Positions 2,835 through 3,203 of a stretch of DNA of 64,000 nt are shown piece by piece. Source of the stretch: Microcoleus sp. FACHB-1515 (lineage in GTDB: Bacteria; Cyanobacteriota; Cyanobacteriia; Elainellales; Elainellaceae); NCBI RefSeq assembly GCF_014696105.1, contig NZ_JACJPO010000020.1, positions 124,001-188,000 on the forward strand. The letters are read 5' to 3'. The notes under the pieces were generated by a model, which searched no databases, was not told where the DNA came from, and saw nothing but the letters and a program-made list of their open reading frames with translations. A program made the translations under genes and the position numbers. The first letter of the stretch is position 1. The number at the start of each line of letters is the position of its first letter.

Positions 2835-2840
2835 TATAGT
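2835..2840 (+). promoter_or_regulatory. Extended -10 promoter element of the 2.8-3.1 kb short transcript
   Basis: TATAGT is preceded directly by TGC, giving an extended -10 (TG-n-TATAGT). A TTGACT lies 23 bp upstream, too far for a standard -35, so the extended -10 may compensate. Initiation near 2847 would give a transcript of roughly 285 nt ending at the terminator at 3096-3130. Confidence 0.4.
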
Positions 2841-2923
2841 GAGCATAGGCGTAAGGCAGTTTCAGGCTACGGCGCTGAAGATTTGTACACGCATGTCGTT
2901 TAGTAAGAAAAGAGGTGATGCCG

Positions 2924-2995
2924 ATGCAAGAAAGTAGTAAATGCAAGGGTCGTCAAGTTAGCGAGAGCCGGCTGTGTGCCGGGGCTGTCCGCTAG
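2924..2995 (+). CDS. Candidate 23-codon small ORF inside a short self-contained transcript
   Basis: ATG at 2924 follows AGAGG with an 8-nt spacer, which is near optimal; another in-frame ATG at 2918 is only 2 nt from it. The peptide begins MQESSKCKGRQ and ends LCAGAVR; it has two cysteines and is basic. I do not recognise it. The ORF lies between a promoter-like element at 2835 and a perfect 11-bp terminator hairpin, so the locus could encode a small protein, a regulatory leader, or an ncRNA with an incidental ORF. About 100 nt of structured-looking sequence follows the stop, including CCGGC-TGTGT-GCCGG inside the ORF. No other gene lies between 2729 and 3203. Confidence 0.4.
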   Translation: MQESSKCKGRQVSESRLCAGAVR

Positions 2996-3095
2996 CATTG
3001 ATGTCCTGACGCTTGAGAGGCATCGCCCTTTCAAGAAGCTGGGATGCGCTAGCGTTCCTCCCGGCAGTCTGGTGTTAGCTTGAAGACCCGCTAGA

Positions 3096-3130
3096 CCGCT
3101 CCTGTCTCTCTTCTGACAGGAGCGGATAGC
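3096..3130 (+). terminator. Rho-independent terminator of the short 2.8-3.1 kb transcript
   Basis: A perfect 11-bp stem, CCGCTCCTGTC (3096-3106) with GACAGGAGCGG (3115-3125), closes an 8-nt loop. It is followed by ATAGCTTTTT. The T-run starts a few bases after the stem, so it is a good but not ideal intrinsic terminator. It lies 74 nt before the pterin dehydratase start and separates the two. Confidence 0.7.
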
Positions 3131-3203
3131 TTTTTAAAGGGGCATTTTTTGGCAGTGGCGATCGTGATATGCTGCCTTCCAACCACAGCCCCCAGTCAAA
3201 ATT

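Follow-up and report, generated by a model that had tools for sequence, protein, structure and literature searches.

A widespread cyanobacterial RNA of the Sye_sRNA1 family is predicted to be translated from a short reading frame behind a near-perfect Shine-Dalgarno sequence

Does an otherwise intergenic stretch of the Microcoleus sp. FACHB-1515 genome hold a gene of its own and, if so, does this gene act through its RNA, through a very small peptide or through both? The stretch lies near the start of the window, by which we mean the whole 64,000 nt that were analysed, and the initial annotation had read it as a complete transcription unit with an extended -10 element, a 23-codon open reading frame and an 11-bp terminator. 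All of these parts are present on the forward strand. The extended -10 promoter TGTGCTATAGT is found at 2830-2840, with no -35 element at the correct spacing in the window sequence, and its distance from the terminator T-run gives a predicted transcript of ~289 nt (about 2847-3135). An extended Shine-Dalgarno sequence (SD), GAGGTGAT, complementary to the 3′ end of 16S rRNA, occupies 2912-2919; the family consensus is AAGGAGGTGAT. It is followed by ATG codons at 2918 and 2924, the second of which leaves 8 nt between the GG and the start codon, as had been claimed, and opens a short ORF (sORF) of 23 amino acids, MQESSKCKGRQVSESRLCAGAVR, ending at a TAG stop (2924-2995). A terminator hairpin with a conserved GA/A internal loop closes the unit (3090-3135): its stem at 3096-3125 has 11 pairs, 8 of them G-C, and is followed by ATAGCTTTTT and by the T-run at 3131-3135. 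By itself, the terminator scan stayed at chance level (3 found vs 2.7 expected) and the promoter scan was likewise not above chance. The element goes beyond chance because it is conserved, as seen in its blastn relatives, fold, covariation and reading frame, and it is this family-wide conservation, together with the promoter, sORF and terminator in place, that supports its reading as a complete transcription unit.

The region was recovered by blastn in 36 of 40 relatives, a peptide search placed it in most genomes of the family, and oriented alignments delimited a common block running from AGGAGGTGATGCCC to GCGGATAGTTTTTT. A covariance model built on 32 copies and run over 390 genomes of the class matched 292 of them, in 136 of 160 genera, nearly always as a single copy per genome; a lack of conservation of peptide or RNA structure in relatives, which the initial annotation had named as a refutation, was tested for, and the outcome was the opposite. 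Loci carrying the element belong to Nostoc, Calothrix, Trichodesmium, Planktothrix, Chamaesiphon and Cyanaurora, among others, and divergent but clear copies occur in four genomes which we take to be those of Gloeobacter violaceus, Thermosynechococcus vestitus BP-1, Synechococcus elongatus PCC 6301 and strain JA-3-3Ab, hereafter called Gloeobacter-like, Thermosynechococcus-like, S. elongatus-like and JA-3-3Ab-like. Upstream of the element, TGYGYTA was present in 78 of 117 distinct loci, when 3.6 were expected from shuffles. Among the matches listed by the covariance search, none came from the small-genome family f2 (1.6-3 Mb) or from genus g37 of family f17, in both of which the RNA seems to have been lost. 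The exact 5′ signature was found in none of ~130 genomes outside the photosynthetic class, and viral contigs, searched for a phage origin, gave no match, on which ground such an origin was rejected. Judged from this sequence distribution, the predicted RNA goes back to the ancestor of nearly the whole class. One relative (L022:1511-1895) has a rearranged or duplicated 3′ part, with an atypical 3′ arm and 385 nt to the terminator motif vs about 250.

Rfam 15, searched at the gathering threshold and permissively (E up to 10), returned nothing at the window element or at three of its divergent cyanobacterial counterparts. A published small RNA nevertheless fits it. Sye_sRNA1 was described in S. 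elongatus UTEX 2973, where no other sRNA was as abundant under control conditions; Northern blots confirmed it as a discrete RNA of about 200 nt, its level drops early in high light, and it is represented by 53 homologues located downstream of psbD or cobB, with a conserved structure and a promoter of their own (PMC6091082). Homologues are transcribed in Synechocystis 6803 (TU475), PCC 6714 (TU2045) and Anabaena, and Northern and dRNA-seq evidence exists for the family in other cyanobacteria (PMC6091082). In the genomes compared here, psbD (D2) lies upstream in many loci and cobB/cbiA (CobB/CbiA) in some (L149, for example), and the downstream genes often encode pterin-4a-carbinolamine dehydratase (PF01329) and OprB/SLH porins. 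The position downstream of psbD or cobB is thus shared by the family, but not by the window locus itself, whose upstream genes are CCB1 and a desaturase and which is rearranged relative to that arrangement. The position relative to somA also agrees. In S. elongatus, 2,714 nt separate the transcription start sites (TSS) of the sRNA and of somA (PMC6091082), and the element of the S. elongatus-like genome has psbD2 on one side and two porin genes on the other; if the sRNA starts ~20 nt before the SD, a placement that uses an inferred -10 ~30 nt before the SD, this distance puts the somA TSS ~47 nt before the start codon of the second porin gene. Conserved secondary structure across cyanobacteria was recovered as well, by RNAalifold and covariation. 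From gene order and promoter geometry, we infer with high confidence that the window holds a Sye_sRNA1 homologue, likewise marked by its own promoter, a discrete RNA and a conserved structure. Neither RNA nor peptide had been recognised in the initial annotation; this holds no longer for the RNA, whose family is the published one, but still holds insofar as neither a function nor the ORF is described there. Indeed, the main text of that study gives no function and mentions neither an ORF nor an extended SD (PMC6091082), our literature search found no role assigned to the family, and searches with the peptide, the nucleotide string and the Anabaena locus tags returned no match. Compared with the published family, a conserved ORF is shown here and the range extends from 53 homologues to nearly the whole class; the predicted translated ORF, the near-perfect SD and the class-wide range appear to be new.

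What does the RNA look like? The 288-nt RNA of the window folds better than 200 shuffles (z = -4.5), and RNAalifold predicts for the family a long helix pairing GGGUC..CAGGUU..CUGGCU....GCCGGGG with UCCCGGCAGUC..AGACCC, in addition to the terminator hairpin. In the window, the 5′ arm of this long-range helix spans 2947-2984, entirely within the sORF, and the 3′ arm (TCCCGGCAG...GACCC) spans 3059-3089, both placed by RNAalifold and covariation counts. Between them lie a variable apical domain (2996-3054), defined by the alignments and the window fold, and a conserved pyrimidine tract, TTCCTCCC (3055-3062), recognised from its conserved columns and partly unpaired (mean unpaired probability 0.63). 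In the 100 aligned copies used to count covariation, pairing holds in 96.9% of cells, changes on both sides are seen at 30 of 45 pairs, and cells changed on both sides number 468 vs 99 in shuffles, none of 500 shuffles reaching the observed values; these counts lean to the model, the alignment being fitted to it and the shuffles keeping sequence relatedness, but the margins are large. The signal is lost when partners are slid by 1-3 columns. In the terminator hairpin, 10 of 15 pairs have changed on both sides. The predicted RNA fold is thus backed by strong covariation. In six loci (L111, L112, L120 and L127-L129), the conserved CUAGACCGC...GCGGAUAG terminator domain has been replaced, but the sORF is retained, as is much of the domain that forms the helix.

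The window's own fold suggests that a long local complement closes off the SD; as a general feature, this was considered and rejected: an exact complement of at least 7 nt to the SD region exists in one of 97 copies only and is a peculiarity of the genus. In this genus alone, GGCATCGCC in the apical domain (3019-3027) can pair with the SD region (2912-2922).

The ribosome-binding site of the family stands out by its strength. The 16S rRNA of the window genome ends in GGCTGGATCACCTCCTTT. Of 97 copies, 82 have an SD with a match of 9-12 nt to the 16S 3′ end, and in the window copy the match is 8 nt; at the starts of the 83 long ORFs of the window, the best SD match is 7 nt. By this sequence measure, the predicted SD of the family is near-perfect. 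A weak covariance-model match in the same phylum, outside the photosynthetic class (G442; L305:190-330), proved to be another kind of short ORF, which encodes the hydrophobic peptide MKISITEKALLLILLITIMLELF and is preceded by a perfect SD of 12 nt. It is probably unrelated to the element. Since an unrelated short ORF can also follow a perfect SD, the SD part alone can be convergent.

The frame behind this SD is never closed. An open frame of 17-27 codons (17, 23, 24, 26 or 27) is found in all 97 distinct aligned copies, and within the first 17 codons this frame has a stop in no copy, whereas the other two frames have one in 65 and in all 97 copies. Indels inside the ORF are multiples of three, and a pattern search with ten gap lengths allowed returned in-frame ones only. 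Copies that have lost the usual stop reach another after one to a few further codons. In 94 of 97 copies, a spacing of 8 nt separates GGAGG from the start. It had been argued that the second ATG is better placed for the ribosome than the first and that this speaks for real translation; the evolutionary evidence agrees, as the conserved start corresponds to the second ATG (ATG or GTG) and the position of the first drifts between ATG, GTG and TTG. The ratio pN/pS is 0.71 in frame vs 1.17 and 1.30 out of frame, and about 1 over codons 2-9. Thus, the frame is protected more strictly than the peptide, whose sequence appears to be only weakly constrained. In the common form, the ORF spans the whole 5′ arm and the stop codon falls between the two helix arms. 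A shorter form of 17 codons occurs at L118, L121, L125, L126, L115 and L130, with the stop six codons earlier, at the position of a Cys codon; such forms include the S. elongatus-like and Thermosynechococcus-like copies, in which the stop lies inside the 5′ arm and the RNA is still kept.

How are these two layers of conservation to be reconciled? We propose, giving this reading a probability of roughly 0.5, that the element is a stand-alone gene of the Sye_sRNA1 family whose product would serve at once as a structured regulatory RNA and as a translated mRNA, its fold being opened by the ribosome that translates it. The comparison shows a promoter and terminator of its own, a near-perfect SD, a short frame that is always open, and a helix whose 5′ arm lies in the frame and whose 3′ arm lies past the stop. 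The strong SD would recruit the 30S subunit very efficiently, and the translating ribosome would then unwind the 5′ arm, freeing the 3′ arm and the pyrimidine tract. Because translation would melt the helix, the state of the RNA would follow ribosome supply, with translation capacity deciding between a closed form and one opened by the ribosome. The open form might work in trans, either through base pairing or by retaining ribosomes, and the act of translation would probably matter more than the peptide itself. Against this proposal, a strong SD before a short ORF also fits a plain micropeptide mRNA, a ribosome translating one of the 17-codon forms would leave some of the 5′ arm closed, and, as noted above, the shuffle controls keep sequence relatedness.

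It is possible, if on the unlikely side, that the element does no more than encode a conserved micropeptide, as an mRNA which its structure just stabilises or regulates. The peptide does have a consensus, M-x-[D/E]-S-S-K-x-[M/L/V]-G..., in which 78 of 79 copies have D or E at codon 3, where each of the four third bases occurs, and S5, K6 and G9 are nearly fixed; the strong SD and the frame kept in 97 of 97 copies are also what such an mRNA would be expected to have. However, a full explanation at the peptide level is weakened by the pN/pS of about 0.7 overall and about 1 over codons 2-9. Moreover, AGT-AGT and GGT are near-invariant even at third bases, which points to constraint at the RNA level, W/R changes at codon 16 track base-pair changes, and the last six residues are absent from the Thermosynechococcus-like and S. 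elongatus-like copies.

The opposite view, that of a purely non-coding sRNA with a fortuitous ORF, appears improbable. Sye_sRNA1 was indeed published as an sRNA with a conserved structure (PMC6091082), and strong conservation at the RNA level with covariation agrees with that description. But a fortuitous ORF would hardly explain 97 open frames in 97 copies, in-frame indels, a conserved start with its SD spacing, or the retention of a stop one or a few codons further on in copies without the usual one. Finally, pterin dehydratase or OprB porin genes lie downstream in most genomes, and the element might be their cis-acting leader or attenuator. This is very improbable and was rejected on synteny, since the element is kept beside other neighbours, for example in the Thermosynechococcus-like genome, where it lies downstream of queA, and in the Gloeobacter-like and JA-3-3Ab-like genomes. 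The terminator at its end is strong and conserved, and the published transcript is a discrete RNA of about 200 nt (PMC6091082).

On the reading that we prefer, of an RNA both structured and translated, the evolutionary evidence points to a dual-function sRNA with a predicted translated sORF, and the RNA, whose structure is conserved beyond the ORF, may act independently of the peptide. Dual-function sRNAs such as SgrS/SgrT and RNAIII/hld are small RNAs that also carry a short translated ORF. The cyanobacterial element would resemble them in this respect and differs from them in that the coding region itself forms the 5′ arm of the main structural helix. Yfr1, Yfr2, PsrR1, IsaR1 and NsiR4 are likewise cyanobacterial sRNAs, several of them widely conserved; they are set apart by the absence of any Rfam match to the element, a comparison that covers Rfam families.

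A further likeness comes from Chloroflexota. A named scan returned two contigs labelled as belonging to this phylum (L173 and L203). A wider pattern combining SD and anti-SD gave mostly chance matches in Chloroflexota; a narrower one was found in 19 of 199 genomes of the class of L203, with no match for a reversed control, and in the class of L173 only in the seed genome (1 of 158). In 13 Chloroflexota loci, Rfam returned nothing at the element. The Chloroflexota RNA (L270-L290, L292) is shorter than the cyanobacterial one. Like it, it has a perfect SD, GGAGGTGATGC, followed by an ATG and usually by GTAGTA 7 nt later, an ORF mostly of 15-19 codons, a terminator, and a helix with its 5′ arm in the ORF and its 3′ arm beyond. 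Unlike it, the Chloroflexota RNA carries a perfect copy of the anti-SD, GCATCACCTC, which pairs with its SD over 10 bp and gives a pseudoknot layout; such pairing is not general in cyanobacteria. The SD helix hardly varies, and covariation supports the second helix only. L282 and L290 have a third segment, GGTGATGCC, whose competition for the anti-SD looks like a switch. The SD-closing complement GGCATCGCC of the window genus recalls the Chloroflexota arrangement. The common 5′ signature may reflect either common descent or convergence on a perfect SD. That Cyanobacteria and Chloroflexota would share an ancient class of ribosome-responsive RNA, in which a perfect SD, a tiny ORF and a translation-opened helix would form a sensor of free ribosomes acting in trans, is a doubtful proposition.

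Homologues of Sye_sRNA1 reportedly rank with the most abundant transcripts in model cyanobacteria and are light-responsive (PMC6091082). One of the strongest possible ribosome-binding sites, joined to a conserved frame, offers a testable way into an RNA of this abundant kind. If the reading proposed here is confirmed, an RNA described as small and non-coding is translated, and the occupancy of this RNA by ribosomes may control its activity.
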